A stretch of 64,000 bases of DNA. It comes from Leuconostoc gelidum subsp. gelidum KCTC 3527 (GTDB lineage: Bacteria; Bacillota; Bacilli; Lactobacillales; Lactobacillaceae). The notes under the pieces were generated by a model. That model did no database searches, was not told where the DNA came from, and saw nothing but the letters and a program-made list of their open reading frames with translations. The stretch is from positions 124,001 through 188,000 of the forward strand of contig NZ_AEMI01000036.1 of assembly GCF_000166715.1 (NCBI RefSeq), written 5' to 3'. Of this stretch, positions 2,901 through 26,314 are shown piece after piece; position 1 is the stretch's first letter; every line of letters begins with the position of its first letter. The position numbers and the translations under genes were made by a program.

Positions 2901-3495
2901 TCTAGCTCAAGTAGAGGCCTTGTTATTTGTAGCAGGAGATGAAGGTATTAAAATTGAAGATATCTGTCAGATGACACAATTTGATAAGTCAGCTGTGATT
3001 ACTTTGATTGATGAGTTAGCAACAAATTATGCTAACAATTTAAATAGTGCTTTAGAGATTCGAGAATCAGATGGGGCTTATCGCTTAGTCACAAAGCCAG
3101 AACTTGGTGCCACTGTGAAAGGCTATTTTGATGCACCGCTAAATGCTACCTTGTCGCAAGCACAATTAGAAACACTAGTAATTGTTGCCTATAAACAGCC
3201 TATAACGCGTGTTGAAATTGATCAAATCCGTGGCGTGCAGTCTTCTGGAACATTACAAAAATTAGCACTACGCCAATTAATTGTAGCGACGGGGCGAAAA
3301 GATGAACCAGGTAGACCAATCATGTATGGTACGACGACTGAATTTTTAGACTATTTTGGGCTAAAAAAACTAGCAGAGTTACCACCCTTACCAGATTTTG
3401 ACACATTGGAAATTGGCGATGAGGGTGGCGAGTTATTTACCAGCGCGTTTGAAGCACGCGTGGCAGAAACGGAAGAAGAGAATAAACATGTCTGA
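2893..3495 (+). CDS. scpB: Segregation and condensation protein B
   Basis: 200 residues from ATG 2893; a TTG at 2875 in the same frame was rejected because MNNLAQVEALLFVAGDEGI is the normal family N-terminus. Two winged-helix domains are expected; the conserved core LSQAQLETLVIVAYKQPITRVEIDQIRGV and the GRPIMYGTTTEFLDYFGL tail are both visible. ScpB binds ScpA in the SMC complex. It overlaps scpA (8 bases) and rluB (8 bases), so the three genes are tightly coupled. Confidence 0.93.
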   Translation: MNNLAQVEALLFVAGDEGIKIEDICQMTQFDKSAVITLIDELATNYANNLNSALEIRESDGAYRLVTKPELGATVKGYFDAPLNATLSQAQLETLVIVAYKQPITRVEIDQIRGVQSSGTLQKLALRQLIVATGRKDEPGRPIMYGTTTEFLDYFGLKKLAELPPLPDFDTLEIGDEGGELFTSAFEARVAETEEENKHV

Positions 3496-4237
3496 AGAAG
3501 CACAACGTTTACAAAAAATCATTGCACAAGCTGGGTTAGCATCACGGCGCGGCGCAGAAGAATTAATTGCCAAAGGGCGTGTGCAAGTTAATGGGCAGAC
3601 GGTTACTGAACTTGGTATGAAGGTTGAACCAAGCGACCATGTTGAAGTAGATGGTTCACCAATTGAGGGCCGTGAAAAATTGGTTTATTATTTATTAAAT
3701 AAACCGCGTGGTGTTGTAACAACTAACAATGATGAAAAAGGACGTCAGACAGTGATAGATCTTTTGGGTGATGTTAGTCAACGTGTTTATCCTATTGGCC
3801 GTTTAGACTATGATACAACTGGCGCTTTGTTATTGACCAACGATGGCGTAGTCGCTAATCAATTAATGCACCCAAAATCACGTGTAGATAAGGTCTATTT
3901 GGCTAAAGTTGAAGGTATAGCTACAGACGAAAAATTAGCGCCGTTGAAGCATGGCGTAGTCATTAAAGGTCGTAAAACAGCACCCGCACGGGTAGCAATT
4001 GAACGGGTTGACAAGGATAAAAAAACAAGTATGGTTCGTGTCATTATTCATGAAGGTCGTAACCATCAAATTAAAAACATGTTACAAAAGGTTCATCTGC
4101 CAGTTGTCAAACTGACGCGTGAACAGTACGCTTTTTTTGATTTAACCGGCTTGCAATCTGGTGAATATCGCAAATTGACAGGTGCTGAAGTGAGACGATT
4201 AAAAGCAGAAGATTATAAAAATTATCGTAGAAAGTAA
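3488..4237 (+). CDS. rluB: Ribosomal large-subunit pseudouridine synthase B
   Basis: 249 residues from ATG 3488, which begins MSEEAQRLQKIIAQAGLASRR; an upstream in-frame start at 3398 lies deep in scpB and adds non-family sequence. An S4 RNA-binding domain (about residues 8-65) precedes the RsuA/RluB catalytic domain. The GRLDYDTTGALLLTNDG motif holds the catalytic Asp. The enzyme modifies 23S rRNA, by family near position 2605. It is the last gene of the overlapping xerD-scpAB run; an independent promoter for ribU follows at once. Confidence 0.92.
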   Translation: MSEEAQRLQKIIAQAGLASRRGAEELIAKGRVQVNGQTVTELGMKVEPSDHVEVDGSPIEGREKLVYYLLNKPRGVVTTNNDEKGRQTVIDLLGDVSQRVYPIGRLDYDTTGALLLTNDGVVANQLMHPKSRVDKVYLAKVEGIATDEKLAPLKHGVVIKGRKTAPARVAIERVDKDKKTSMVRVIIHEGRNHQIKNMLQKVHLPVVKLTREQYAFFDLTGLQSGEYRKLTGAEVRRLKAEDYKNYRRK

Positions 4238-4270: not shown

Positions 4271-4285
4271 AATAAAAATTGAATA

Positions 4286-4413
4286 AACTTCAGGGTCGGG
4301 TGTAAATCCCAACCGGCGGTGAGACATGCATGACATGGTAAGCCCGCGACCTGCGAAAGCAGTTGATCTGGTCAAAATCCGGAGCCGACCGTAAAGTCGG
4401 GTATAAAGAAGTT
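4286..4413 (+). ncRNA. FMN riboswitch (RFN element)
   Basis: All main RFN blocks are present in order: CTTCAGGGTCGGGTG, AATCCCAACCGGCGGTGA, AAGCCCGCGA, TGATCTGGT, AATCCGGAGCCGAC and a closing GAAG. The terminal P1 helix is formed by AACTTC (4286-4291) with GAAGTT (4408-4413). It sits in the leader of ribU, so FMN excess should switch off riboflavin uptake. The expression platform is the terminator hairpin downstream. Confidence 0.95.
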
Positions 4414-4429
4414 AAAAAAAAGAAAGTTG

Positions 4430-13371: not shown

Positions 13372-14223
13372 ATGTCTAATATTAAAATTGTTACAGATTC
13401 AGCGGTTGCCTTAACTCCAGAAGAAATAAAACAATATGATATAACAGTTATACCGCTGACCGTCCAAATTGATGGTGTCGTGTATGAAGATGGTGTAACT
13501 ATTCAACGCGATGAATTTTTAGAAAAAATGACAACAAGCCATAGCTTACCGCAAACTTCTCAACCATCAATTGGTAAATTTCAAGCAGTTTATGAGGCTA
13601 TTCATGAAAAAAATCCAGATACTGAAATTTTGAGTTTACATATATCTTCAGGTTTATCTGGTACGGTACATGCAGCTGATCAGGCAGCAGCACTGACAGC
13701 TGCTAAAATTACCACCTTTGATACGTTAAATGCCGATCGTGCACAAGCTTTTTGTGTTTTAGCTGCGGCTAAAATGGCACAAGATGGCGCCACGATGTCT
13801 GAAATTTTGATTGAAATTAAAAAAATACGTGAGAATTCTCACACGTTTTTAAGTTTCACATCACTCGATAATATGGTTGCTGGTGGACGTCTTAGTAAAA
13901 CATCTGGGCTTATTGGCAACCTACTTAACATTAAAGTTGGTGCTGGTGTCGACAAAACAGGGTCAGTTGAAGTCATTACAAAAGGTCGTGGTATGAAGGC
14001 ACTTAGTAAATTTAATGATGGCGTGATTGCTAAGATGCAAGCATATTCTGACATATTAGCAATTGGCGTCTCACATGCAGGTGTTCCAGAGGTTGCTGAG
14101 AAAATGGCAGTACGCTTAAACAAAATTTGGCCAGATATTAAAATTGAAGTGATGACAACAGGGCCTATCATATCAACTCATACTGGTGTTGGTGCATTGG
14201 CTATTTTGTACCATGCACGTTGA
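13372..14223 (+). CDS. DegV family fatty-acid-binding protein
   Basis: 283 residues. IKIVTDSAVALTPEEI opens the DegV fold, TSQPSIGKFQAVYEA and LHISSGLSGTVHAADQAA form the lipid head-group site, and GGRLSKTSGLIGNLLNIK is the second conserved block. DegV/FakB proteins bind fatty acids and, with FakA kinase, can feed exogenous fatty acids into phospholipid synthesis. FakA is not encoded here, so a FakB role is an inference. The ribosome-binding site is GAGGAG. The stop codon is embedded in a 21-bp terminator stem. Confidence 0.9.
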   Translation: MSNIKIVTDSAVALTPEEIKQYDITVIPLTVQIDGVVYEDGVTIQRDEFLEKMTTSHSLPQTSQPSIGKFQAVYEAIHEKNPDTEILSLHISSGLSGTVHAADQAAALTAAKITTFDTLNADRAQAFCVLAAAKMAQDGATMSEILIEIKKIRENSHTFLSFTSLDNMVAGGRLSKTSGLIGNLLNIKVGAGVDKTGSVEVITKGRGMKALSKFNDGVIAKMQAYSDILAIGVSHAGVPEVAEKMAVRLNKIWPDIKIEVMTTGPIISTHTGVGALAILYHAR

Positions 14224-14266
14224 GCACAATAAAACCCAAACTATGTTTGGGTTTTATTGTGCTCAA
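14220..14266 (+). terminator. Long terminator overlapping the degV stop codon
   Basis: A perfect 21-bp stem (14220-14240 with 14246-14266, loop CTATG) starts one base before the TGA stop of degV. The upper part AAAACCCAAA/TTTGGGTTTT followed by ATT is terminator-like. It would also work for minus-strand transcripts from the decayed gene next door. Confidence 0.85.
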
Positions 14267-14342
14267 ATTTTTGATATTGTAAATATTTATCAAAATTAAT
14301 ACGTTAGTATCAGATTGGTTTAAAAAATTGATCAGGAAAAAA

Positions 14343-14740
14343 TTAAGGGAGCACATCAGTTTTGAGAAATACAGGTTTATTAACTTCTTGTGGGCGCCAT
14401 CCTAGAAAAGGCGGGTATGTATTTTATTTCGTAATGTAATATGGTTCGAATTTGCAATATCTAATGTGTCAACATGATAGGTTAAATTAAATAATGTTTT
14501 GTATCTTGTGTCCATACATTCTGTCTATTCTTCAATTTTATTTGCAGCACCCAATAGAGAAGATATCTTTAATTGAAACATTTTGATTCGTTATAAATTG
14601 TTGAAATTGATTTGTAGTCCGATAAAGTAGGAGATTAATAAAACATTTTTCATAGTCATCACTGGTCATGTTTTTAACGAGATTCAGTGCACGTATATGT
14701 ACGCCTCGAAGTGGTAACCAGCAGGCAGTGAACGACCCAG
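14343..14740 (-). pseudogene. Decayed gene remnant, family unrecognised
   Basis: No intact ORF occupies 14270-14820, but the minus strand keeps coding-like stretches in different frames. One block just before a TAA at 14343-14345 reads PPFLGWRPQEVNKPVFLKTDVLP. A second, at about 14550-14725, reads through LRGVHIRALNLVKNMTSDDYEK into NLLLYRTTNQFQQF. Stops and frame changes separate them. This looks like a gene broken by several indels, flanked by degV and csbD copy 2. The family is not recognised and the exact limits are uncertain. Confidence 0.4.
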
Positions 14741-14800
14741 AATAATGATAGTGCGGCTGACTTTAAATATTTTGTGCCAATGCCAGCATGAGCATATATT

Positions 14801-14829
14801 TTGAAATAATTTAATAATGACGTTACAAT
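14801..14829 (+). promoter_or_regulatory. Promoter of csbD copy 2
   Basis: TTGAAA (14801-14806) and TACAAT (14824-14829) with an exact 17-bp spacer, a good vegetative-type promoter. No sigma-B-like motif was recognised. Confidence 0.75.
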
Positions 14830-14869
14830 ATACTTGTAACATCAAATAAGAATCAAGGAGAATAACATT

Positions 14870-15076
14870 ATGTCAATTGAAGAAAAGTTTGATAGCGCCA
14901 AGGACAAGATTGCTGGCAAGGCAAAAGAAGTAGAAGGCAAGGTTACCGGTGACAAAAATCGCGAAGCAGAGGGTAAAGCACAAGGTGTTCTAGGCAAAGT
15001 GAAAGATACAATCACAGATGTTAAGGATAACGTTAAAGATACTATTGCAGATTTAAAAAAAGATAGCAAAAAGTAA
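14870..15076 (+). CDS. CsbD-family stress protein (copy 2)
   Basis: 68 residues, nearly identical to copy 1 over the first 40 residues ([33 protein letters not shown]). The C-terminus differs and is rich in D, K, V and T (KDTITDVKDNVKDTIADLKKDSKK). Like copy 1 it should be a small soluble stress protein of unknown mechanism. It has its own consensus-like promoter and terminator, so it is expressed independently. Confidence 0.88.
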   Translation: MSIEEKFDSAKDKIAGKAKEVEGKVTGDKNREAEGKAQGVLGKVKDTITDVKDNVKDTIADLKKDSKK

Positions 15077-15092
15077 TTTAAACTATAAAGTT

Positions 15093-15124
15093 AAAAGGAA
15101 CTGACATTTGTTAGTTCCTTTTTA
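15093..15124 (+). terminator. Intrinsic terminator after csbD copy 2
   Basis: A 14-bp stem (15093-15106 with 15109-15122, one G-U) with a two-base centre, ending in a T-tract. The core is AAGGAACT/AGTTCCTT. Confidence 0.9.
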
Positions 15125-15406
15125 TTCGTAAGATAAGTTTAAGTGATGTGTGGTATCACATTAAAAAATGTCGATGATACTTTAATATTTAAATAATCTG
15201 GCTCAGGCATAATTAAAGACATAAACTTAGCAGGTTGACTTCTTTTAAATTCTCATTCTTCCAAATGCAAAATTTTTACACTATACCTGCTAGTTTTTTA
15301 TTTGCCTATATACTGATAATGATTACAGCTAGTTACATAGAACTATAAAGCAAGTGACACAGTAGTGTTGAATCAATATAAATGGTTCGTTTAAAATTAT
15401 TTATAC

Positions 15407-15446
15407 ATTGCATACGCTAATTTTTTGGAAAACCATCGTATGCAAT
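15407..15446. repeat. 10-bp inverted repeat upstream of the aromatic operon promoter
   Basis: ATTGCATACG (15407-15416) and CGTATGCAAT (15437-15446) are exact reverse complements 20 bases apart, ending 22 bases before the -35 hexamer. It could be a regulator site or the stem of a short RNA. The rest of 15125-15468 holds no ORF or recognised motif except TAGCAGGT (15228-15235) and ACCTGCTA (15285-15292), which could form a long-looped hairpin before a T-run. Confidence 0.6.
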
Positions 15447-15468
15447 AATGTTGTAAAATAATGAGAAT

Positions 15469-15497
15469 TTGACAAATTCAATATTAGGAAGTATAAT
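15469..15497 (+). promoter_or_regulatory. Consensus promoter of the aromatic operon
   Basis: TTGACA (15469-15474), a 17-bp spacer and TATAAT (15492-15497): a perfect match to the sigma-A consensus. The start near 15504 gives a leader of about 260 bases before tkt. Such a strong promoter is typical of operons controlled afterwards by attenuation. Confidence 0.9.
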
Positions 15498-15527
15498 TAA
15501 TATATTAAATAATGATAAGAGAATAAA

Positions 15528-15590
15528 ATGATGGATAAGCAAATTTTGAAAAGAAAAAATAATAGTTATTATTACTTCTGGTTTATGTAG
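15528..15590 (+). CDS. Aromatic-rich leader peptide of the tkt-aro operon
   Basis: A 20-codon ORF (ATG 15528 or the adjacent ATG 15531, TAG 15588-15590) begins 24-27 bases into the predicted transcript. Its C-terminal residues are NSYYYFWFM: six consecutive aromatic residues at 15567-15584, covering all three aromatic amino acids. A weak AAGAGA Shine-Dalgarno-like element is at 15517-15522, 8 bases before the second ATG. The peptide directly precedes a series of mutually exclusive hairpins and the operon for aromatic amino acid synthesis, the classic setting of a leader peptide used as an amino-acid sensor. It is not similar to any protein family, as expected. Confidence 0.8.
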   Translation: MMDKQILKRKNNSYYYFWFM

Positions 15591-15594
15591 AACC

Positions 15595-15690
15595 GTCGCT
15601 AAGTGCGTCGGTTTTCGACGCACTTAGCGACCAGGAGCTTTTCAAGGTTCAGTCACTAAGTGGAATTTCAACACTTAGTGACTTTTTATT
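15595..15690 (+). promoter_or_regulatory. Attenuator of the aromatic operon: alternative hairpins and first terminator
   Basis: Segment 1 (15595-15610) pairs with segment 2 (15616-15631) as a perfect 16-bp stem. Segment 3 (15651-15662, AGTCACTAAGTG) pairs with segment 4 (15672-15683, CACTTAGTGACT) as a 12-bp terminator followed by TTTTTATTT. Segment 2 can instead pair with segment 3 over 11 positions (10 matched), which would block the 3:4 terminator. This 1:2, 2:3, 3:4 logic is that of leader-peptide attenuators. Segment 1 starts only 4 bases after the leader stop. Confidence 0.8.
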
Positions 15691-15713
15691 TGGCAGCGTA
15701 TAACTGTTTTAAT

Positions 15714-15753
15714 AAACCGTACTAGGTGAACGACACTAGTACGGTTTTTTATT
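15714..15753 (+). terminator. Second terminator just before the tkt ribosome-binding site
   Basis: AAACCGTACTAG (15714-15725) pairs with CTAGTACGGTTT (15736-15747), followed by TTTATT. It lies between the first attenuator and the tkt AGGAG (15754-15758). Its left arm (15720-15728) can alternatively pair with segment 4 of the first terminator (15672-15680; 9 pairs, two G-U), so the two terminators may be linked in one switching chain. Confidence 0.8.
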
Positions 15754-15764
15754 AGGAGAGAATT

Positions 15765-17702
15765 ATGAATGAAACATTAGCGCTACCTACTGAGTCATTA
15801 AAATTAATTAATAGCATGCGATTAATTGCTAATCAAATGATTTCAAAGGCTGGATCTGGACATCCTGGTATTGCGCTTGGTGCTGCGCCGATTTTATATG
15901 AGTTATATGCAAACCAGTTAGTGGTTGATCCTGATAATCCAGATATGATTAATCGCGATCGTTTTGTATTGTCAGCTGGACATGGCGCTGCGTTGCTTTA
16001 CACCACGTTGTATGCCGCTGGTTTTGACCTATCATCTGCTGACTTGGCACATTTTAGATCACCACACTCAAAAACACCTGGTCATCCAGAAGTTGGCATA
16101 ACCCCTGGTGTTGAAGCAACAACAGGACCCTTGGGTCAGGGACTAGGCATGGCTGTCGGCATGGCAATGGCAGAAGCGAAATTACATGATCAATTTCCAA
16201 ATGTGGTAGATCATTATACATATGTCCTCGTTGGAGATGGTGATCTTATGGAAGGCGTCAGTCATGAAGCTGCGTCATTAGCTGGTAAACAAGGTTTATC
16301 GAAATTAATTGTTATACATGATGATAACAGTATTAGCCTTGATGGTGACAAAAATAGATCAGATATTTCAGATAATATGGCACGCTTTGCAAGTTACGGT
16401 TGGCATGTACTTGAAGTACCTGATGGTAATGATGTTTCTGCCATTCATCATGCGATTGATAAAGCTAAAATAAACTCAAAGCCAACATTTATTTCAGTTA
16501 AAACAATCATTGGAAATTACGGTCCTTACTCTGGCACCAATAAAGCCCATGGTACGCCGTTAACTCAAACACAACTTGATGCGTTGGCGACTAATTTAAA
16601 TACGGAAATAAGTGATTTTGAAATAGATATTGACGTTCTTCAAGATATACGCCAACGTATTCATGACCGTTTGACTCATCAACAGGTAACGGATATTGAT
16701 GAATTAACAGCCTACAAATTTTTTACGCAACATCAAGTGACTACGACACCAAAATTGACAGAATCCATTAAATCCCAAGCTGGCCGTAAAATTTCCAAAT
16801 TTGCTATACAAGCATTTTCAAAACAGTTACCGCAGTTATGGGGTGGATCAGCAGACTTAGTCGCTTCAACTAATGCCGAAATTGTTGAAACATCACTATT
16901 TAACTCGGATAATCGTTCAGGACGAAATATTGCTTTTGGCGTCAGAGAATTTGGTATGGGGGCTGTCATGAATGGGATTGCATTACATGGTGGCACTAAA
17001 ATTTTTGGCGCCACATTTCTAGTGTTTTCAGATTATATGAAGGCAGCTATTCGTTTGAGTGCTTTACAAAAACTACCAGTTATTTATGTGTTCACACATG
17101 ATAGCATTACAGTTGGAGAAGATGGGCCGACGCACCAACCAATTGAACAAATTATGAGTTTAAGATTGATTCCGGGCATTGATGTTTTACGACCTGGAAC
17201 AGCCGAAGAAATTACAGCAGCGTGGCAAAAAGCACTTATGTCTGTTAATCGACCAACAGTTTTAATTTTGAGTCGTGGTCCCATTGGATCTCAAGGAACA
17301 GTACAACAAGCAAAGTCGGCCATCGAAAATGGGGCAGTTAATATTGCGACGCAACCCAAAGCTGTCATAAATTTAATTGCTTCAGGATCAGAAGTACAAT
17401 TAGCTCTGACGGTTAGCCAGAAATTGAGCGTTCCTAGCCGTGTGATTTCAATGCCTAATTTGAAGCAGTTTTTGTCTCTTGATTTGAAAGATCAAACACA
17501 AATTATTCCCAAAGCGGCTGCAGAAAATGTGATAATAGAAGCAGGAACAACACTTGGCTTGCAAGTATTAACCGGTGATACTGGGCTTATATTTGGTATT
17601 GATCAATTTGGTATGAGCGCTGCACCTCAAATGATGTTAGATGAATATGGTTTGAACGCAAGTACAATTGTTAAAAAAATTGCACAATATTTGGAGAAAT
17701 AA
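15765..17702 (+). CDS. tkt: Transketolase
   Basis: 645 residues, usual length. Thiamine diphosphate binding is shown by GDGDLMEGVSHEAASLAG near residue 155 and SLDGDKN; the N-terminal SGHPGIALGAAPILYEL and the pyrimidine domain FGVREFGMGAVMNGIALHGG with FSDYMKAAIRLSAL are typical. It interconverts sugar phosphates and can make erythrose-4-phosphate, an AroF substrate. As the first gene of an aromatic operon, behind the leader-peptide attenuator, its likely task here is precursor supply for the shikimate pathway. That fits an organism relying on phosphoketolase rather than a complete pentose phosphate cycle (inferred). Confidence 0.95.
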   Translation: MNETLALPTESLKLINSMRLIANQMISKAGSGHPGIALGAAPILYELYANQLVVDPDNPDMINRDRFVLSAGHGAALLYTTLYAAGFDLSSADLAHFRSPHSKTPGHPEVGITPGVEATTGPLGQGLGMAVGMAMAEAKLHDQFPNVVDHYTYVLVGDGDLMEGVSHEAASLAGKQGLSKLIVIHDDNSISLDGDKNRSDISDNMARFASYGWHVLEVPDGNDVSAIHHAIDKAKINSKPTFISVKTIIGNYGPYSGTNKAHGTPLTQTQLDALATNLNTEISDFEIDIDVLQDIRQRIHDRLTHQQVTDIDELTAYKFFTQHQVTTTPKLTESIKSQAGRKISKFAIQAFSKQLPQLWGGSADLVASTNAEIVETSLFNSDNRSGRNIAFGVREFGMGAVMNGIALHGGTKIFGATFLVFSDYMKAAIRLSALQKLPVIYVFTHDSITVGEDGPTHQPIEQIMSLRLIPGIDVLRPGTAEEITAAWQKALMSVNRPTVLILSRGPIGSQGTVQQAKSAIENGAVNIATQPKAVINLIASGSEVQLALTVSQKLSVPSRVISMPNLKQFLSLDLKDQTQIIPKAAAENVIIEAGTTLGLQVLTGDTGLIFGIDQFGMSAAPQMMLDEYGLNASTIVKKIAQYLEK

Positions 17703-17703
17703 A

Positions 17704-18531
17704 ATGGCAGTATACGGTTTAATAGCACATCCGGCAGGACATTCACGATCACCTGTTATGCAAAATAAAATGATTTTTCAACGACAGATTGATGCGTATT
17801 ATCATAAATTTGATGTTCAACCCGAGAATTTAGCAATGGCTATCAAAGGATTACGACTTTTAAATTGTGGTGGGTTTAATGTTTCTACGCCATATAAAGA
17901 AGATATTATACAGTATTTAGATGAGTTAACACCATCAGCAAACCGTTTACAGGCGGTAAATACAGTCAAAAATGTTAATGGTCGTTTGATTGGTACAAGT
18001 ACTGATGGCGACGGATTTTGGCAAAGCATGAACCCTAATCAACCACATGAAAATGTTGTGATCCTTGGGACTGGTGGTGCAGCAAGAGCTGTTATTGCTG
18101 CAGCACAGCAGTATGGTGTTCGCCACTTGACGGCATTTAATCGGCCACATTCAGGGTGGTCCCAACGTGAAACTGCTGTTGCGTATCTTAGTCAAGGTAT
18201 TGGTCAATTAGCAGATTTATCTGATAATCGTGCATTGACAAATGCCTTACAACAGGCGGATTTATTGATCAATGCAACAACTGTGGGTATGAATGATGCG
18301 AGAACATTATTAACAGATTACCAAGTCGGTTTGCTACCACAACATGCATTGGTAGTCGATATGGTTTATCGTAACCAACAAACAGGATTACTAAAAGCAG
18401 CCAAAAAGCATCAATTACTCACACAAAATGGCTTACCAATGTTAGTGGGTCAGGGGGCGCTAAGCTTCGAATTCTGGTTCAATCAACCTGCTGATCGACA
18501 GTTAATGGCGCAAGCTATAGAAGGAAAATAA
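17704..18531 (+). CDS. aroE: Shikimate dehydrogenase
   Basis: 275 residues from ATG 17704, one base after the tkt stop. An in-frame upstream codon at 17668 lies inside tkt and is not family sequence. GLIAHPAGHSRSPVMQNKMI is the substrate-binding N-terminus, FNVSTPYKEDI contains the catalytic Lys, and ILGTGGAARAVIAA is the NADP-binding Gly-rich loop. GQGALSFEFW is the C-terminal conserved block. It reduces 3-dehydroshikimate to shikimate. The usual N-V-P-K motif reads NVSTPYK here, a familiar variant. Confidence 0.95.
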   Translation: MAVYGLIAHPAGHSRSPVMQNKMIFQRQIDAYYHKFDVQPENLAMAIKGLRLLNCGGFNVSTPYKEDIIQYLDELTPSANRLQAVNTVKNVNGRLIGTSTDGDGFWQSMNPNQPHENVVILGTGGAARAVIAAAQQYGVRHLTAFNRPHSGWSQRETAVAYLSQGIGQLADLSDNRALTNALQQADLLINATTVGMNDARTLLTDYQVGLLPQHALVVDMVYRNQQTGLLKAAKKHQLLTQNGLPMLVGQGALSFEFWFNQPADRQLMAQAIEGK

Positions 18532-18532
18532 G

Positions 18533-19543
18533 ATGATTTTAATTACAAAAAGCAATGATAAAGCACAAGAGATTGCCCAAAAATTAGACACTAATAATCC
18601 CATTAAACCAGTGTTCGTGCATGAAAATCGCGTGGCGTTGGCAGGGGTAAAAAACTTGCCTGACAGTACTTTGAATGAAATTTCACAATATATTGTTGAA
18701 ACAATCACAAATCACCATCCAGCGATTGTTTCTTCTCGAGATTTCCACCCAAATGATTCAATAATAAAGACCAACCATTCAATCATTGGGGGAAATCATT
18801 TTATCTTTATGGCTGGTCCAGATTCGATTGAAAGTGCAGAACATGTGCTTGAAATGGGTCGTCAAGTTAAAGCGGCCGGCGCAACAATTTTGCGTGGCGG
18901 CGCTTTCAAGCCACGAACTTCACCTTACTCTTTTCAAGGTAATGGCGAAGTGGGACTGAAAGCTCATCGTGCAGCCGCAGATGAACTTGGTATGGATATG
19001 ATTACTGAAATTTTAGATACACGAGATGTTGATTTAGTTGACTCGTATACGGATATTTTTCAGGTTGGCACGCGAAATATGCAAAATTTTGCTTTGTTGA
19101 AGGCTCTAGGCCAAAAGCGCAAGCCAGTTGTCTTAAAACGTGGGATGTCCGCAACGATTGATGATTTATTAAATGCCGCAGAATATATTGCAGCAGGTGG
19201 TAACATGCAAATCATGCTAATGGAGCGTGGCATTCGAACGTACGACAATAAGTACACACGCAATACGATTGATGTTTCAGCTATTCCTGTTTTACAAAGT
19301 TTAACGCATTATCCAGTTATTGCGGATGCATCACATGCAGCTGGAGTTGCAAAATTTGTGACACCATTGGCGTTGGCGGCTACTGCAGCTGGTAGTCAAG
19401 GACTCATGACGGAAATACACGATGATCCGGCACACGCATTTGTAGATGGCGCACAAGCATTGACACCGGAAGCCTTTTCTCAACTTGCTGACAAAGTGAG
19501 AAAAATTCATGATATTGTTGCACACGATAACTTAGAATACTAA
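18533..19543 (+). CDS. aroF: 3-deoxy-D-arabino-heptulosonate-7-phosphate synthase (type I-beta)
   Basis: 336 residues: an N-terminal ferredoxin-like regulatory domain (residues 1-70) fused to the KDO8P/DAHP synthase barrel, as in type I-beta enzymes. It condenses PEP with erythrose-4-phosphate, the first shikimate step. Visible motifs are GGAFKPRTSPYSFQG, KRGMSATIDD and ADASHAAG. The metal ligand usually seen as Cys in AGPCSxE is Asp97 here (MAGPDSIES), while the other ligands (His in ASHAAG, Glu in MTEIHDDP, Asp in FVDGAQ) are kept. The regulatory domain suggests feedback inhibition, effector unknown. AAGGA precedes the start, 1 base after aroE. Confidence 0.93.
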   Translation: MILITKSNDKAQEIAQKLDTNNPIKPVFVHENRVALAGVKNLPDSTLNEISQYIVETITNHHPAIVSSRDFHPNDSIIKTNHSIIGGNHFIFMAGPDSIESAEHVLEMGRQVKAAGATILRGGAFKPRTSPYSFQGNGEVGLKAHRAAADELGMDMITEILDTRDVDLVDSYTDIFQVGTRNMQNFALLKALGQKRKPVVLKRGMSATIDDLLNAAEYIAAGGNMQIMLMERGIRTYDNKYTRNTIDVSAIPVLQSLTHYPVIADASHAAGVAKFVTPLALAATAAGSQGLMTEIHDDPAHAFVDGAQALTPEAFSQLADKVRKIHDIVAHDNLEY

Positions 19544-19565
19544 TAATTAGTTAGAAAGGATAGTT

Positions 19566-20627
19566 ATGTCAACCGTACATGTATCTTTTGATCAAAAAGC
19601 GTATGCCGTTAAAATTAATAATACAGCACATACTCAAATCGGATCAGAAATTTTAGCTGTTTGGTCGCTTCGTAAAATCGCCTTGCTGACTGACAGTCAT
19701 GTTGGACCGCTTTACTTGACGACAACACAACAGCAGCTTGAAGCTGCAGGATTTGATGTGTTACCCTTACAAGTGCCGGCCGGTGAACAATCCAAGTCAT
19801 TAACAGTGGCTGGTGAATTGATCGCCAAAATGGCTGCAGCTGGATTTACGCGAGGAGATGGCCTAATTGCTTTAGGTGGTGGTGTTGTTGGCGATTTAGG
19901 TGGTGTTGTGGCTTCTCTTTATATGCGGGGTATTAGCTTTATTCAAATTGCAACATCTCTCACAGCACAAGTTGACTCGTCAGTTGGTGGCAAAACGGCC
20001 GTTAATTTGGGCGATACTAAAAATATTGCGGGCACCTTTTATCAACCAGATTTAGTTTTGGTTGATAGCACATATTTAAATACATTAACAGATCGTGATT
20101 TAGTTGAAGGCTATGGAGAAGTTGTTAAAACTTCGGCGCTTGATAGTCAAGAATTCTTTGACTTCACTGGGACTATACAATCAATTCAAGATATTCGCAT
20201 GCATGCACAGAAACTGTCACAATTGGCTATTGCCTATAAAGCAAAAATTGTGATGCATGATGAAAAGGAATCAGGCCAACGGCAATACCTTAACTTTGGG
20301 CACACAATAGGACATGCAATTGAGTTATTAGCACATGGGAATCTGCGACATGGTGAGGCTGTCGCGATTGGTATGATAGCGATGACTGAACGGATGGCTC
20401 GTGATGGTGTGTCATCTGATGATTTGACTAACGCTCTCAAAGCACGTTTAGAGGCGGTAGGGTTACCAACAAGCTCAAATTTAATAGGCACGTCTGAATT
20501 TTTTGATCATTTGATTAATGATAAAAAAAATCGTGGTGGCATTCTAAATCTTGTGGCACTCAAAAAAATTGGCAGTCCTGTGATTGTCCAAAAAAAATTG
20601 GCAGATATGCCAGATTTTATTAAATAA
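19566..20627 (+). CDS. aroB: 3-dehydroquinate synthase
   Basis: 353 residues. PAGEQSKSL and GGGVVGDLGGVVASLYMRGISF are the NAD-binding signatures. TSLTAQVDSSVGGKTAVN contributes catalytic residues, and FGHTIGHAIE plus HGEAVAIGM hold the Zn-binding His residues. It converts DAHP to 3-dehydroquinate. Spacing to aroF is 22 bases with AAAGGA as ribosome-binding site. All visible active-site motifs are intact. Confidence 0.96.
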   Translation: MSTVHVSFDQKAYAVKINNTAHTQIGSEILAVWSLRKIALLTDSHVGPLYLTTTQQQLEAAGFDVLPLQVPAGEQSKSLTVAGELIAKMAAAGFTRGDGLIALGGGVVGDLGGVVASLYMRGISFIQIATSLTAQVDSSVGGKTAVNLGDTKNIAGTFYQPDLVLVDSTYLNTLTDRDLVEGYGEVVKTSALDSQEFFDFTGTIQSIQDIRMHAQKLSQLAIAYKAKIVMHDEKESGQRQYLNFGHTIGHAIELLAHGNLRHGEAVAIGMIAMTERMARDGVSSDDLTNALKARLEAVGLPTSSNLIGTSEFFDHLINDKKNRGGILNLVALKKIGSPVIVQKKLADMPDFIK

Positions 20628-20684
20628 AACTCTGAAAGGAATGTGTGAGGAATAGTTATTATACACTTCATACAATAAATAATT

Positions 20685-21863
20685 ATGCGCTATACAACAG
20701 CAGGTGAAAGCCATGGGCCAGAAGAAATTGCTATCATTGAGGGCATACCAGCAGGATTACATATTACTCAAGAAGATATTAATGAAGAATTAGCGCGTCG
20801 TCAACATGGTTATGGTCGTGGTGAACGGCAACAAATTGAAACAGACACTGTGACTTTTCTAACTGGCGTGCGGCATCAAATCACATTAGGATCACCCATA
20901 ACACTAAATGTACACAATGATGATCACAATAGCTGGTCTAAAATTATGGCACCAAATGATCCTGCGACACCAGAAAATACCTTACGAAAAGTTTTACGAC
21001 CACGTCCTGGCCATGCTGATTTAGTAGGTGGTATGAAATATCGACATCATAATGATTTGCGCAATGTGTTGGAACGATCATCAGCTCGCGAAACAACCAT
21101 GCGCGTTGCTGTAGGTGCAGTAGCAAAAAAATTATTACGAGAAATTAACGTTGATGTTCACGGATTTGTTGTCAATGTAGGTCCTGCAAAATCAGATTTA
21201 AATGTCTTAACACAGTATAAAAATTTGCAAGAATTACGTGCGGTGACTGAAAGCTTTGCAACGCGAGCCTTAACAGCTGAAGCTGATGAAGCTATTCGTC
21301 AAGTGATTGACAAGACGAAGCGTGATGCAAATACAGTTGGTGGTCAGGTACAAGTTATCGCAACAGGTATGCCTGTTGGACTTGGGTCATATGTATCAGC
21401 TGATGAAAAGTTAGATGGCAAGATTGCGCGTGCAATTGTTGGTATCAATGCTTTCAAAGGGGTACAGTTTGGCGGTGGATTTGATAATTCTGAAAAATAT
21501 GGCGATCAAATTATGGACGAAATTTTTTGGGATTCAGAAAAAGGATTTTACCGTGGTACTGATAATTTGGGTGGCTTTGAAGGTGGTATGACAACTGGTG
21601 AAGCGATTACTGTTCGTGGCGTTGTGAAACCAATCCCAACCTTATATCGGCCGATGAAATCGGTCGATATTGACACACATCAAGAACATAAAGCCTCTAT
21701 TGAACGTTCAGATACAACTGCTGTTACAGCAGCAGCGGTTATTGCCGAGTCTATGGTAGCTATTGAACTTGCAATAGCTGTTTTGGATAAATTTGATGCG
21801 GATAATATTGAGCGCATGAAAGAACAGGTAGCAGCATATCGTGAAGAAATTCGTACATTTTAA
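20685..21863 (+). CDS. aroC: Chorismate synthase
   Basis: 392 residues. MRYTTAGESHGPEE is the conserved N-terminus, RRQHGYGRGERQ, RPGHADLVGGMKY and SSARETTMRVAVGAVAK follow, and the C-terminal RSDTTAVTAAAVIAE is the FMN-binding signature. It makes chorismate from EPSP using reduced FMN. The 57-base gap before it holds no Shine-Dalgarno within the usual distance. The nearest purine-rich run (GAGGAA) is over 30 bases upstream, while TACAAT (20671-20676) sits where a -10 would give a near-leaderless message. The start itself is fixed by family alignment. Confidence 0.95.
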   Translation: MRYTTAGESHGPEEIAIIEGIPAGLHITQEDINEELARRQHGYGRGERQQIETDTVTFLTGVRHQITLGSPITLNVHNDDHNSWSKIMAPNDPATPENTLRKVLRPRPGHADLVGGMKYRHHNDLRNVLERSSARETTMRVAVGAVAKKLLREINVDVHGFVVNVGPAKSDLNVLTQYKNLQELRAVTESFATRALTAEADEAIRQVIDKTKRDANTVGGQVQVIATGMPVGLGSYVSADEKLDGKIARAIVGINAFKGVQFGGGFDNSEKYGDQIMDEIFWDSEKGFYRGTDNLGGFEGGMTTGEAITVRGVVKPIPTLYRPMKSVDIDTHQEHKASIERSDTTAVTAAAVIAESMVAIELAIAVLDKFDADNIERMKEQVAAYREEIRTF

Positions 21864-21908
21864 CTAAGTAGCCTTGGCTACGTACATACTTAAAAAGGTA
21901 GAGTACTT

Positions 21909-23213
21909 ATGATCAAACTTATCAAAGCACCAAAATCAGGTCTGCATGGTGAAATTACCGTGCCAGGGGACAAATCAATTTCACACCGGGCATTAATGTT
22001 TGCGGCTATTGCGACTGGTGATACGCTCATTGACAATTTTTTAATGTCAGATGATGTGATGCGCACAATGACTGTATTTCGTGAACTTGGTGTGGATGTG
22101 AGTCAAGTAGGTTCACAAATAAAAGTGATAGGAAAAGGATTGGATAGCTTTACAAAACCAGAACATGCACTTAATATGGGAAATTCTGGGACATCAACGC
22201 GCCTTTTAATGGGCTTGTTAAGTAAACAGCCTTTTGATATTCCTTTTTTCGGTGATGAATCATTGAGCAATAGGCCGTTGCGTCGCGTTGCAGGGCCATT
22301 ATCATTAATGAATGCTAAGGTTGATCTAACAGGTGATAATTTTTTACCGGGAACGATTCGAGCAAATAATAGATTGCAGGGTATTACCTACGAAATGCCC
22401 GTTGCATCGGCACAGGTTAAAAGTGCTATTTTATTGGCTGGCATACAGGCAGAAGGTGAAACCATTATTATTGAAAAAGTGACTTCAAGAGATCATACGG
22501 AACGTATGCTACGCCAATTTGGAGGGGTCATTACAACAAATAATGGGGTAATCACTGTACAACAACAGCCGCAATTACGTGGACAACATGTGCTAGTCCC
22601 TTCAGATATTTCAAGTGCGGCATTCTTTATGGTGGCGGGCTTAATTACGCCAAATTCTGAGTTAACCTTAAAAAAGGTTGGTGTTAATCCAACGCGTGTT
22701 GGTGTGATTAAATTACTTGAACGTATGGGCGCAAAGATTAAGCAAGAGCCAATTCTTTCAGACGGCGAAGCACTTGCAGACATTGTCATTAAATCGCAGT
22801 CTTTACATGGCATTAATATTGTGGCGAATGATATTCCAAGTGCTGTTGACGAGCTACCAATTTTAGCATTAGCCGCAACACAAGCAATTGGAGATACTGT
22901 GATTAGTGGTGCTGCAGAATTGCGGGTAAAAGAAACCGATCGTATTGCAACGGTGATCAGTGAACTCACAAAACTTGGTGCCGATATTGAAGAAAAACAA
23001 GACGGCATGATTATTCATGGCGGCACACCGCTGCGTACAATGCAGGATTCTGCATTACTTGATTCGCATGGCGACCATCGTATTGGAATGATGAATGCCG
23101 TTGCTGCATTAATTACTGAGGGAAATGTTATTTTAACAGGCGAAGACGCAATGAGCGTTTCATATCCTGGATTTTTGGCTGATTTGACAGCTGTAATGAG
23201 AGAAAAATTATGA
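21909..23213 (+). CDS. aroA: 3-phosphoshikimate 1-carboxyvinyltransferase (EPSP synthase)
   Basis: 434 residues. The two-domain EPSPS fold is indicated by VPGDKSISHRALMFAA near residue 18, LNMGNSGTSTRLLMGLL, LSNRPLRRV, and ELRVKETDRIATV in the second domain. It transfers enolpyruvate from PEP to shikimate-3-phosphate. The segment GNSGTSTR has Thr-Ser where many class I enzymes have Gly-Thr-Ala-Met; this resembles the class II pattern of Gram-positives that tends to tolerate glyphosate (inference from family). A small hairpin (GTAGCC/GGCTAC) sits between aroC and aroA, and AAGG precedes the ATG. Confidence 0.95.
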   Translation: MIKLIKAPKSGLHGEITVPGDKSISHRALMFAAIATGDTLIDNFLMSDDVMRTMTVFRELGVDVSQVGSQIKVIGKGLDSFTKPEHALNMGNSGTSTRLLMGLLSKQPFDIPFFGDESLSNRPLRRVAGPLSLMNAKVDLTGDNFLPGTIRANNRLQGITYEMPVASAQVKSAILLAGIQAEGETIIIEKVTSRDHTERMLRQFGGVITTNNGVITVQQQPQLRGQHVLVPSDISSAAFFMVAGLITPNSELTLKKVGVNPTRVGVIKLLERMGAKIKQEPILSDGEALADIVIKSQSLHGINIVANDIPSAVDELPILALAATQAIGDTVISGAAELRVKETDRIATVISELTKLGADIEEKQDGMIIHGGTPLRTMQDSALLDSHGDHRIGMMNAVAALITEGNVILTGEDAMSVSYPGFLADLTAVMREKL

Positions 23214-24052
23214 TAAATATAGTTGTTGTGGGACTTGGTGAAATGGGCGCATCATTGGCTGAAATTTTAAATACGCAATCTAACAATTATGTTGTCGGGG
23301 TGGATATTAATGAACAGTCTTTGCGTTATGCGATAGAGAATAATCTTGTTTCAGCAACTAGTTCTCAATTGCGTGATGTTGCACCACAAGCTGATGTCAT
23401 TGTTTTAGCCACACCGGTAACTAGTATTGAAAAAAATATGCATCAATTAGCAAAAATGGTGTTGAAAGAAAACGTTATTATAACTGATACAGGGTCAACA
23501 AAACGAGATATCATGGCAGTGGCCGAAGAAGTATTAACACCAATTAATATCACATTCATTGGTGGACACGCAATGGCTGGCACGCATCAAAGTGGCGTGA
23601 CTTACGCTAATAAACACCTATACAAACACGTGACGTATTTTTTAGTGCCAAGTTCTATGAGTGACAGTCGTAGATTACAAACAGTATTTAAACCATTGGA
23701 TGCTAAATTTATCACCATTGATATTGTCAAACATGATGCGTTAATGGCAATAATTAGTGACGTACCACATATTGTTGCTTTTGCATTAATGAATACGGCA
23801 ACAGCACAGTTAGGACCAGCAACACTGTTTGGTCAATATGTTGCTGGCGGGTTTAAAGATACAACACGTATTGCAGCGAGTGATTCTAAACTTTGGGCAG
23901 ATGTTTTATTGAGTAATAAACAAGCTGTGTTAGAAAGTCAAAAGCAACTGATAAAACAATTAAACTTCTTTTCACAGGCAATCGAAAATAATGATGAAGA
24001 TGCACTGATAACACTTATTTCTGATGCACGACAATCAAGAGAAAATTTATAA
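23210..24052 (+). CDS. tyrA: Prephenate dehydrogenase
   Basis: 280 residues, starting in an ATGA overlap with the aroA stop. IVVVGLGEMGASLAEIL is the NAD(P)-binding loop. TDTGSTKRDI, GGHAMAGTHQSG and ISDVPHIVAFAL are the conserved substrate and catalytic blocks (His in GGHAMAG). It converts prephenate to 4-hydroxyphenylpyruvate toward tyrosine. There is no C-terminal ACT domain, unlike Bacillus TyrA, so direct allosteric control by tyrosine through ACT is not expected. Confidence 0.93.
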   Translation: MINIVVVGLGEMGASLAEILNTQSNNYVVGVDINEQSLRYAIENNLVSATSSQLRDVAPQADVIVLATPVTSIEKNMHQLAKMVLKENVIITDTGSTKRDIMAVAEEVLTPINITFIGGHAMAGTHQSGVTYANKHLYKHVTYFLVPSSMSDSRRLQTVFKPLDAKFITIDIVKHDALMAIISDVPHIVAFALMNTATAQLGPATLFGQYVAGGFKDTTRIAASDSKLWADVLLSNKQAVLESQKQLIKQLNFFSQAIENNDEDALITLISDARQSRENL

Positions 24053-24068
24053 TTAAAGTGAGAAAATA

Positions 24069-24869
24069 ATGATTAAAGAACCAGATACATTGATGCTTAT
24101 TGGTTTTATGGGTGCAGGAAAAACAACTGTAGGCAAAGAAATAGCCCGTCAGCATCATTCTAAATTTCTTGATATTGATTCTGAAATTGAGCGTGTTGCT
24201 GGACAAACTATCAGTGAGATTTTTGAAACGCGCGGTGAAGTTGGGTTTCGTCAATTGGAGACTGAGGTTTTAAATGATGTGCAAACATTTAAAGGCATTG
24301 TTGCAACAGGTGGTGGCGTCGTAGAACGACAAGAAAATTTAGAGGTGTTACAACATTCGCCAGCGACGGTTATCTACTTACATGGTAACTTGGAAAGTAC
24401 AATTGGTCGGTTAATATTGGAAGGACAACGACCATTATTGCAAGAAAAGTCTACAGCAGAATTTTTTGCCTTGTGGCAAAAACGTGATCCAAAATATCAA
24501 CAAATAGCTAATTTCACTGTAGAAACGGTTGGTAAAAAACCTTCACGTATTGCTGCTGAAATTATTGCATTATTTAGTGCCAATCAGGATGAATTGGCAT
24601 TATTACAGCTGCGATCACAAATTGATGCTTTTGATCGTCAAATTTTTCAAACAATTGCTGAACGCTTTCAAGTAGTTGAAGATATTGCGCGCTACAAAGA
24701 AAAATTTGGTATAGCAACAATACAAAATAATCGTATGATTCAGCAGCGAATAGCTCTGAAAAGTGATTTTTATGCAAATAAAGACATCACTGATGACATG
24801 ATTGATAATATTATGACCATTTTAATGCAGGCAGCGATTGATAAAGAAGTAAAACAATTGAATAGGTGA
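24069..24869 (+). CDS. aroK: Shikimate kinase - chorismate mutase fusion
   Basis: 266 residues. Residues 1-170 form a complete shikimate kinase: P-loop GFMGAGKTT (12-20), LDIDSEIERVAGQTISEIF, GEVGFRQLE, and ATGGGVV. Residues from about 175 to 266 form an AroQ-type chorismate mutase: LALLQLRSQIDAFDRQIFQTIAERFQVVEDIARYKEKF, described in parts as LRSQIDAFDRQI and IARYKEKFG. The kinase acts before chorismate and the mutase after it, so the fusion bridges non-adjacent pathway steps. The reading frame is continuous with no sign of a sequencing join. It lies between tyrA and the prephenate-dehydratase-like gene. Confidence 0.9.
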   Translation: MIKEPDTLMLIGFMGAGKTTVGKEIARQHHSKFLDIDSEIERVAGQTISEIFETRGEVGFRQLETEVLNDVQTFKGIVATGGGVVERQENLEVLQHSPATVIYLHGNLESTIGRLILEGQRPLLQEKSTAEFFALWQKRDPKYQQIANFTVETVGKKPSRIAAEIIALFSANQDELALLQLRSQIDAFDRQIFQTIAERFQVVEDIARYKEKFGIATIQNNRMIQQRIALKSDFYANKDITDDMIDNIMTILMQAAIDKEVKQLNR

Positions 24870-24872
24870 GTT

Positions 24873-25427
24873 ATGAATATACATACACTTGGTCCTACTG
24901 GGACTGATTCAGATCGTGCAGCACAGCATTATTTAACACATGAAACTTTAATTTTGCATACAAGTTTTGAAGAAATAATCATGAATTTTCACAATTATCG
25001 TGGCGATAAAATATTGATGCCAGTTGCATTCAAGTCTAATAAATTGGCTGGCATAGACTGGGCAGAGTTTAACTATTTGAATTGGATGAATCTTGAGATT
25101 GAATCAACATTTTCATTGCCTTTAATGACAATGAGTCTTGTTGAAAACACACAGTATCAACGAAATATCGCGTTAATTCATGCCGCTACTGAAGGTTTAA
25201 TGAAGCGTTATTTAACAAAAATAGCGTTGAATAATGCTGCTGGACCATCAATTGTATTTGCACCAAGTAAAATTGTAGCATTACAGGACTTTATAAAAAA
25301 CCGAAATCGGTTTACAATTATTTCAGAAGAACAATTCAAAAAAATTCCAGAAAGCAGTGATGAAAAATATCGAATTAGGCAAGTTTTAAAGCCTCAAATG
25401 ATATGGGTCGTCTACAAAATATTATGA
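24873..25427 (+). CDS. Prephenate dehydratase-like protein without ACT domain
   Basis: 184 residues. HTLGPTGTDSDRAAQHYL (residues 4-21) matches the N-terminus of prephenate dehydratases and of BacA-type prephenate decarboxylases. The length is far below the roughly 280 residues of PheA, and there is no ACT domain. The dehydratase Thr-Arg-Phe catalytic motif appears to be Asn145-Arg146-Phe147. It could be a divergent dehydratase for phenylalanine, a BacA-like enzyme acting on prephenate, or an inactive regulatory relic. Operon context (chorismate mutase before, aroD after with ATGA overlap) supports a prephenate-related role. Confidence 0.6.
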   Translation: MNIHTLGPTGTDSDRAAQHYLTHETLILHTSFEEIIMNFHNYRGDKILMPVAFKSNKLAGIDWAEFNYLNWMNLEIESTFSLPLMTMSLVENTQYQRNIALIHAATEGLMKRYLTKIALNNAAGPSIVFAPSKIVALQDFIKNRNRFTIISEEQFKKIPESSDEKYRIRQVLKPQMIWVVYKIL

Positions 25428-26314
25428 CACTAAGAGAATTATTACATCTGCCAAGCACCAATGATAAACCGGTTATCACGGTGCCTTTAACCTTAGGGCC
25501 TTCCGATAAGTTTGGGCCATTCACACAAAAATTGCAGCAACAAAATCCAGACGCAGTTGAATGGCGAGCAGATTATATAGTAGATAACTTTAGTCAAGCT
25601 GTGATGTGGCAACAAGTTAAATTAGGGGCACAAAATGAACTCGCACAAAAAAATGTGTCAGTGATGACTGAAGCAAAGATGTTAGCTGAAATAGACAACG
25701 CGAAGCAAGAGTTCACTGCCAATTGGCCTGTAATGAATCAGCAAATTACCAAAGAATTAGTTGGAACTGTATTTAATAGTATTGGTGGTTTCCCGGTTAT
25801 TTTGACGTATCGGACGACATCTCAGGGTGGGCAAGGAGAGATGTCACCTGTTGAGTACACGACTTTTTTGGTTAATGCACTTTATGCAGGTTACCCATTT
25901 GCAGCTGTTGATGTGGAATATTCATTAGAAGAACTTTTACGTCAAAAGATTATTGATGTGGCACATGAAGTAAGTGTCCCTGTTATATTGTCATATCATG
26001 ATTTTAATATGACGCCAAAAAATAGTACAGAGATCATATTGGATATGTCAAAACAACCAGCAGATATTATTAAATTAGCAGTAATGTCACAATCTGAAAA
26101 AGACACACAATATTTACTAGATGTAACCAAAAGTGCTGTGGGTAGTGTTAGTCAGCCATTGATTACTATGAGTATGGGTGAATTTGGTAAACGTTCACGA
26201 ATAGAAGGTTATCATTACGGTTCAGAAATGACATTTGCTGTACTCGACGGGACACGAGTCAGTGCGCCAGGTCAGTTAACAGTTAACGATCTTGTTCAAG
26301 AATGGCAAGAATAA
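25424..26314 (+). CDS. aroD: 3-dehydroquinate dehydratase, type I
   Basis: 296 residues from ATG 25424, in an ATGA overlap with the previous gene. Type I features: VEWRADYIVDNF near residue 48, PVILTYRTTSQGG, ILSYHDFNMTP with the catalytic His, and IIKLAVMSQ with the Schiff-base Lys. SMGEFGKRSRI and GSEMTFA follow. It converts dehydroquinate to dehydroshikimate. It is about 40 residues longer than usual because of extra sequence at about residues 65-120. Being last, out of pathway order, it is followed by a strong bidirectional terminator that ends the operon. Confidence 0.93.
   Translation: MTLRELLHLPSTNDKPVITVPLTLGPSDKFGPFTQKLQQQNPDAVEWRADYIVDNFSQAVMWQQVKLGAQNELAQKNVSVMTEAKMLAEIDNAKQEFTANWPVMNQQITKELVGTVFNSIGGFPVILTYRTTSQGGQGEMSPVEYTTFLVNALYAGYPFAAVDVEYSLEELLRQKIIDVAHEVSVPVILSYHDFNMTPKNSTEIILDMSKQPADIIKLAVMSQSEKDTQYLLDVTKSAVGSVSQPLITMSMGEFGKRSRIEGYHYGSEMTFAVLDGTRVSAPGQLTVNDLVQEWQE

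Follow-up and report, generated by a model that had tools for sequence, protein, structure and literature searches.

The tkt-aro operon in the 64,000-nucleotide stretch of Leuconostoc gelidum subsp. gelidum KCTC 3527 DNA analysed here (the window; leader and operon coordinates are on its plus strand) is preceded by a leader that its anatomy marks as a real, conserved leader-peptide attenuator. The best explanation, which we consider probable, is a ribosome-mediated transcription attenuator that reads tRNA charging for Tyr, Phe and Trp and employs a relay hairpin. The relay step, which would proceed via a hairpin at the stop codon of the leader peptide (X), is the least certain part, above all in the window's own copy.

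Anatomy of the leader and its operon

The first gene of the operon, tkt (transketolase, 15765-17702), matches TIGR00232 with an E value of 2.3e-202 and 673.9 bits, just below the cut-off of 682.25. It is followed by aroE, aroF, aroB, aroC, aroA, tyrA, aroK-chorismate mutase, a pheA-like gene and aroD (17704-26314), assigned through family matches of which several lie below the NCBIfam cut-offs, and the gene spacing suggests that tkt and the aro genes are co-transcribed. The stretch 24069-24869 encodes a single protein comprising shikimate kinase and then a chorismate mutase-like domain, and the pheA-like gene (24873-25427) is divergent and encodes only 184 amino acids, its product having no NCBIfam match and reaching 22.2 bits with Pfam PDT, below the cut-off of 25.2. 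Elsewhere in the window, an FMN riboswitch (4282-4417) is the sole Rfam match at the gathering threshold, and a very strong 20-pair terminator (14220-14266) lies 3' of the gene at 13372-14223.

The leader begins with a sigma-A promoter, TTGACA-17-TATAAT (15469-15497), which matches at 12 of 12 positions, a score unique among the 10 promoter-like hits on both strands of 14200-15900; only this perfect score is notable, because shuffles of the same region give 9.0 ± 3.0 hits scoring at least 9/12. Across 91 leaders compared, a promoter of at least 10/12 occurs within 160 nt upstream in 75, versus 11 of 91 mono-shuffled upstream stretches. The leader ORF (15528-15590, with an alternative start at 15531) has 20 codons, MMDKQILKRKNNSYYYFWFM, ends in SYYYFWFM and stops at TAG. 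Shine-Dalgarno-like matches of at least 4 nt precede the ORF in 87/91 leaders and of at least 5 nt in 67/91 (raw counts; two of the four remaining leaders were unscored and one lies at a contig end), which suggests that the ORF is translated; the match in the window is 4 nt only.

The Phe and Trp codons with their flanking bases (S0, 15575-15583) can form a contiguous helix, CTTCTGGTT:GACCAGGAG, with a complementary downstream segment (A', 15629-15637), which starts 41 nt past the first base of the stop codon in the window and 38-55 nt after the stop across the 32 leaders used for the swap tests below. The computed fold contains an extra outer helix between codons 7-9 (15546-15553) and 15638-15645, for which 99.0% of cells are paired and one pair has a two-sided change among 13 genus sequences. 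The predicted hairpin X has a 5' arm that begins within the stop codon (S1, 15589-15599) and a 3' arm (S2, 15605-15615), the latter also supported by genus pair counts, which overlaps the 5' arm of H1. H1 itself (15595-15610/15616-15631) is a 16-bp stem without breaks in the fold, and the 3' part of its 3' arm together with the start of A' constitutes S3. Terminator T1 consists of S4 (15652-15662), for which S3 is an alternative partner, S5 (15672-15682) and the T-run TTTTTATTT (15683-15691). A second tandem terminator, T2 (15714-15747; stem -17.9 kcal/mol), lies just before the tkt ribosome-binding site, and a portion of its 5' arm (S6, 15720-15728) is able to pair with S5 over 9 pairs at -10.9 kcal/mol (CACTTAGTG:TACTAGGTG). 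Both T1 and T2 are present before the first gene in the window; T2 was found by script in 81/91 leaders, and its stem displays compensatory changes in the genus alignment. A terminator scan of 14200-15900 did not list T1 or T2, T1 being absent because the scan takes loops of 3-8 and its loop is 9. The fold of 15530-15700 reaches -63.8 kcal/mol versus -34.05 ± 3.98 kcal/mol for 200 shuffles (z -7.47, none as good).

A sequence-only reading of the same DNA had described the perfect promoter, the 20-codon ORF with its Y-Y-Y-F-W-F tail, pairing segments 1-4 with a T-run, and the capacity of 15575-15583 to pair with 15629-15637, and all of these were recovered here, the segments as nested hairpins and a terminator. 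Its scheme of four segments, in which the arms of H1 are segments 1 and 2, is borne out in that H1, S3:S4 and T1 exist and covary, but it needs correcting: the codons themselves are a pairing segment, as its own caveat had allowed, and X at the stop codon and T2 had been missed.

The leader matches no Rfam family at the gathering threshold, and the listing at E ≤ 10 for 15400-15800 comprises chance-like matches. The T-box leader (RF00230) gave no gathering-score match in the window and none at the aro operon; the genome from which the window comes has 20 T-box matches at E ≤ 1e-3, three of them above the cut-off. RF02863, discussed below, was not matched in the window, in locus L004 (E 0.05) or across the window's genome (E 0.001).

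Distribution in Leuconostoc and Lactobacillaceae

Within the genus Leuconostoc, tkt is present in 18 of 19 genomes, and the leader peptide, with a conserved C-terminal half and the aromatic codons kept, occurs in all 17 loci that extend far enough upstream of tkt (loci L020 and L005 are nearly identical). The peptide tails are mostly SYYYFWFM, with NNYYYFWFM in L012, NRYYYFWFM in L018 and SYFYFWFM in L019. The genus genome lacking a tkt match (G015) keeps the leader before aroE (L041), so the leader travels with the operon and not with tkt. Nucleotide conservation of the leader is high within the genus, where the pairs hardly vary and the variation is too small to prove pairing. The leaders of the window, L006 and L014 are without an insertion of about 4 nt in the 5' arm of H1 that the other genus leaders carry.

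A covariance model built from 13 genus sequences and searched over 397 genomes of the family Lactobacillaceae found matches at E ≤ 0.01 in 32 of them, spread over 8 of 40 genera and including at least one false match (L052, a non-leader). The aroF gene was found in 148/397 family genomes and 25/40 genera. Of the 129 aroF-positive family genomes outside the genus, 111 were taken as 112 regions, 4 entered via covariance-model loci and 14 were left out. An aromatic leader ORF lies on the operon strand before the aro genes in 70 of these 112 loci, a count reached after 10 ORFs that looked like chance occurrences on visual inspection had been discarded, and with them L106, L130 and L158. The other 42 loci lack such a leader according to an ORF filter requiring Trp, although one of them, L055, has a variant. 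Together with the 17 genus loci, these counts agree in anatomy with the proposal of the sequence-only reading that a leader-peptide attenuator precedes the aro operon. In addition, a pattern scan of named genomes returned 27 stretches, of which 23 belong to Leuconostoc (6), Paucilactobacillus (5), Lentilactobacillus (6), Loigolactobacillus (5) and Secundilactobacillus (1), and the remaining four, in unrelated taxa, are chance-like.

The same reading had proposed that one peptide reports on Tyr, Phe and Trp together. All three residues occur together in 89/91 leader tails scored, and L018 and L040 hold all three too; the count is biased because the ORF filter required Trp. L055 is without Trp, and the leaders found outside the family have Tyr and Phe only. 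Variants in genus g4 (L055, L057, L061 and L064) either place Trp ahead of the other aromatic residues (SSSWYYYF) or do without it (RNYYLFYI), and their codon helix is shifted to match.

Rfam searches at the gathering threshold gave no match in any of 20 loci where no leader had been detected (L055 included) and no match on the leader itself in 20 leader loci. Off the leader, the matches were T-boxes (L164 and L086), a tRNA (L101) and an sRNA (L117). No recognised description of this leader for aro operons of lactic acid bacteria was found in a literature search that covered subscription journals thinly, so its absence is unproven; a 2003 comparative study reportedly dealt with aromatic regulation in low-GC Gram-positives.

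Covariation of the pairing segments

Between genera, conservation extends to both the aromatic run and the pairing segments, which change together; a lack of codon conservation in relatives, which the sequence-only reading had named as a refutation, is thus not observed. In swap tests, own partners were compared with foreign partners over 20,000 permutations, each distinct 15-nt core being represented by a single leader (32 of the 91). For S0:A', own partners averaged -16.0 kcal/mol versus -11.7 kcal/mol for foreign ones, and no permutation was as good (0/20,000; 32 leaders). A' follows the codon changes between genera, as in the helices CTTCTGGTT:GACCAGAAG, ACTATTGGTT:GACCAATAGT, ACTACTGGTT:GACCAGTAGT, ACTTTTGGTTC:GAGCCAAAAGT, CCTGGTATGCG:TGCATACCAGG and CTACTTTATC:GATAAAGTAG. 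The own A' is the best partner for just 8/32 leaders, because the common Trp codon gives many A' segments a shared core.

The remaining helices behave similarly. Across the 32 leaders, own and foreign energies were -20.7 versus -11.1 for H1, -15.1 versus -8.7 for X and -16.3 versus -9.7 kcal/mol for S4:S5, each with 0/20,000 permutations as good, and an X-like hairpin starting at the stop codon or a few bases off is predicted in 32/32 representatives. S5:S6, limited to the 26 of 32 leaders with a script-found T2, gave -14.6 versus -8.8 (0/20,000). S3:S4, at -14.1 versus -11.2 in 32 leaders, gave 0/20,000 as a duplex and 5/20,000 as a contiguous helix, the latter being the weakest of the swap tests; this helix is frequently mismatched at one position, for example in CACTTAGCGAC:GTCACTAAGTG and CCTGTGCGACC:GGTCACACAG. 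S0:A' and S3:S4 overlap at the start of A' and are therefore mutually exclusive predicted structures, including the codon region, and both pass the swap test. The 32 leaders share descent and are not independent, but shared descent alone would not keep the pairing, because drift destroys the complementarity of diverged segments. At the level of sequence, these pairings are possible and have changed in coordination between genera; in vivo, they would probably alternate, driven by ribosome stalling.

Tyr/Phe relatives outside the family and RF02863

An order-wide aroF search of 246 genomes returned 30 loci, 21 of them outside Lactobacillaceae. Thirteen of these 21 carry a leader ending in YYFSYFR or similar, without Trp, and no leader was found in the other eight. 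In the nine of these 13 whose full sequence was inspected, S0:A', X, T1 and T2 are all present by eye, and the leaders precede aroE-like and then aroF-like genes, or aroF alone in L220. Rfam family RF02863 (Enterococcus sRNA_2410) reaches its 61-bit cut-off in 5 of 16 loci tested (L205, L213, L215, L219 and L220). Its consensus starts inside the codons F-S-Y-F-R-stop, its outer helix is S0:A' and its first hairpin is X. L219 also contains, at 3495-3596, a weak match (42 bits versus a cut-off of 59) to RF04312, the 'trpB ncRNA motif'; this motif is possibly related to the device.

At E ≤ 0.001, RF02863 matches 131 of 246 order genomes (60 above the cut-off) in 41 of 64 genera, and none of 14 controls. 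From the 131 matching genomes, the 10 best places and 20 further hand-picked ones were read. By eye, nine of the 10 best precede a TrpX-like gene; among the further 20 (L244-L263), all carry an FSYFR-like leader ORF, 19 precede a TrpX-type substrate-binding protein and one (L252) precedes pheA. Family matches to TrpX were obtained for L245 (E 1.3e-111) and L257 (E 5.9e-97), both below the NCBIfam cut-off, L248 matched ABC_sub_bind, and L252 matched prephenate dehydratase. In several families of Lactobacillales, genes for trpX-like ABC transporters are thus preceded by FSYFR-type leaders.

Rfam gives the type of RF02863 as 'Gene; sRNA'. In the available text of PMC5593968, sRNA_2410 of E. faecium is a 195-nt transcript and one of three sRNAs that gave two transcripts on Northern blots. 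These two transcripts could be the output of tandem terminators, a correspondence in number. RF02863 looks like the same kind of element, a leader of aro and trpX-like operons, and its Rfam type may need revision.

Proposed mechanism and alternative explanations

In the proposed mechanism, the leader would form a chain of competing segments: S0 at the codons, S1 at the stop codon, S2 in the 5' arm of H1, S3 running from the 3' arm of H1 into A', S4 and S5 in T1, and S6 and S7 in T2. The OFF state would pair S0:A', S2:S3 (H1), S4:S5 and S6:S7, whereas the ON state would pair S1:S2 (X), S3:S4 and S5:S6 and so remove both terminators together. With no ribosome, S3 would be held by S0:A' and H1, and transcription would stop. 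A ribosome stalled on the aromatic codons would cover S0 and leave S1 free, allowing X to form; X would release S3 to S4 and S5 to S6, so that an opened T1 could disarm T2 via S5:S6 and RNA polymerase would read into tkt. A ribosome at the stop codon would cover S1 and prevent X, and S2 would then capture S3 and the terminators would form. X at the stop codon is accordingly a candidate device for separating 'stalled on codons' from 'arrived at stop'.

The scheme was evaluated by keeping the bases under a ribosome footprint unpaired, codon by codon, and computing the pairing at equilibrium for an RNA ending just past S4, with footprints of -15..+11, -13..+9 and -16..+13. The 42 distinct leaders of the RF02863 group are a set independent of the forming of the idea. 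In this group, the probability of S3:S4 was 0.19 unmasked. Masking codons -14 to -10 gave 0.10-0.13 and masking codons -7 to -3 gave 0.60-0.67, after which the value dropped to 0.41 with the footprint on the last F, 0.27 on R and 0.26 one codon further. As the footprint moved from the codons toward the stop, X fell from 0.68 to 0.02 and H1 rose from 0.23 to 0.83. Over the three footprints, the true stop gave 0.24-0.27, and codons -7 to -3 exceeded the stop in 38, 40 and 38 of the 42 leaders.

With -15..+11, the antiterminator probability averaged over the 32 family representatives was 0.07 unmasked, 0.09 upstream, 0.21 on the aromatic codons and 0.06 at the stop, a modest mean rise with 12/32 never above 0.10; a run with a shorter 5' end put codons -7 to -3 at 0.26-0.38 and the stop at 0.13. 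The outcome is footprint-dependent: the stop was the best position in 4, 2 and 11 of the 32 representatives for -15..+11, -13..+9 and -16..+13, respectively, and with -16..+13 the stop mean was 0.16 versus a codon mean of 0.20. Among genus leaders (-15..+11), 10/16 respond on codons -7 to -2 (0.13-0.89, thus above 0.10), and 15/16 stay at or below 0.10 at the stop. The six that are unresponsive on the codons include all three with an unbroken H1 (window, L006 and L014), and of the 13 without an unbroken H1, L008, L015 and L017 stay at or below 0.06 on the codons. For the window's own leader, masking the aromatic codons yielded 0.00 whichever of the three footprints was used, and masking the stop yielded 0.20, 0.02 and 0.71, respectively (0.35 in another run), the value of 0.71 with the longest footprint being the opposite of the model. 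The modelled equilibrium for the window's own copy therefore speaks against the mechanism, which is favoured there only because of the kinship to other leaders and because X is made before H1 can form; the window's copy may work as predicted for its relatives.

This behaviour of the window's leader, which raises S3:S4 only when the stop is masked and part of segment 1 is thereby covered, is the reason why a simple attenuator of the E. coli trp type keeps some odds, although we regard it as unlikely. Under that explanation, H1 is the 1:2 stem, the ribosome masks segment 1 so that 2:3 forms, and S0:A' and X are side effects; H1, S3:S4 and T1 are indeed present and covarying. However, S0:A' and X pass the swap tests just as H1 does, stop masking in the RF02863-group leaders suppresses X and favours H1, and an ON state at the stop codon would not report starvation. 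Moreover, with the presumed footprint, whose leading edge is at +11 from the A-site codon, a ribosome on any of the aromatic codons would extend no further than 15593, and segment 1 starts at 15595, in line with a caution in the sequence-only reading that a ribosome stalled on the Tyr codons would not shield this segment. The four-segment trp model with H1 as protector was dropped as the whole story, given that no ribosome of this assumed extent on an aromatic codon reaches 15595.

Nascent-peptide arrest, of which TnaC is an example, would have the peptide stall the ribosome near its end upon sensing a free aromatic compound, and the aromatic run at the C-terminus and the conserved tail within the genus would suit it. 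Between genera, however, the tails differ (RFYYYWFR, VRFYSYW, VFYAWYAYFL, SSSWYYYFINE and NYYFSYFR) while the RNA pairing persists and A' tracks the codon changes, and this explanation is highly improbable. Equally little weight falls on the idea that the ORF is incidental and the RNA either binds a metabolite or protein or acts in trans as a small RNA. This idea could draw on the strong nucleotide conservation in the genus, the sRNA type of RF02863 and the Northern bands of sRNA_2410 in the available text of PMC5593968, but is opposed by the FSYFR-like ORF in 20/20 further RF02863 places and by the persistence of ORF and pairings between genera whose letters diverge.

A broader proposal is that relay attenuators constitute a class spanning several Lactobacillales families (aro, pheA and trpX-like operons), in which a stop-codon hairpin reports the arrival of the ribosome, the codons pair, and one decision flips two terminators by partner exchange, with RF02863 being the terminated leader of one such operon. 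We advance this class tentatively, its chances being close to even.

Comparison with known systems

In the E. coli trp attenuator, the leader peptide contains codons for the end product, the codon region pairs with a downstream segment, and an antiterminator competes with a terminator. The leader described here is alike in these three respects. It differs in that a ribosome at the stop codon leaves A' uncovered (at least 38 nt away), so that X would relay the arrival to H1, and in that three amino acids and two tandem terminators are involved. The his leader of E. coli and Salmonella has six segments with alternating partners; the chain here is likewise built on alternating partners, but is longer, holds two terminators and has another segment masked at the stop. 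Amino acid genes of Firmicutes are mostly credited to T-boxes, which sense uncharged tRNA, one T-box reading one tRNA. The sensing of uncharged tRNA would be shared with the present leader, whereas the single tRNA is not, and no T-box was found at this aro operon.

If the proposed mechanism is true, Lactobacillales would commonly control a pathway with three products, Tyr, Phe and Trp, through a leader-peptide attenuator whose three states form a coherent mechanism; a single-tRNA T-box cannot read these products together. A function would also be assigned to an Rfam 'sRNA' (RF02863), and a candidate regulator would be available for trpX genes without a T-box; in the available text of PMC9382623, trpX is reported to have a Trp T-box in S. 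suis and S. pneumoniae but none in S. pyogenes. The codon/A' pairs permit direct compensatory tests.

RF02863 resembles the leader in its start within the codons, its outer helix S0:A' and its first hairpin X, but it is filed as an sRNA, encodes Tyr and Phe only, lies mostly before a TrpX-like gene and has no match in the window's genome. The Leu/phe leader RF01743, which we take to be a peptide leader, is a named leader of this kind within Lactobacillales; it had no match in the window at the Rfam threshold and was not listed at E 10 for 15400-15800. RF01743 appears for Lactococcus lactis in the available text of PMC2864571. The uORFC-13-1 motif of Acholeplasma, as characterised in the available text of PMC8632094, has a uORF with Phe codons before a terminator upstream of aroF, for which its authors propose attenuation. 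Likened by description only, it shares with the present leader the Phe-coding uORF and the terminator upstream of aroF, and differs in its restriction to one genus and environmental sequences and in requiring at least one Phe. Leader-peptide attenuators for His have been proposed by comparison in Firmicutes (PMC2965389 and PMC9413887, in their available text), the 2022 study adding three further Firmicutes groups (PMC9413887); they are alike in having been proposed from comparison, and differ in their His codons and in belonging to other lineages. Judged from its sequence, the leader would work like trp and his attenuation, and would differ from them in codons that pair over a long loop, a possible relay at the stop codon, two terminators that could be flipped together, and the sensing of three amino acids.
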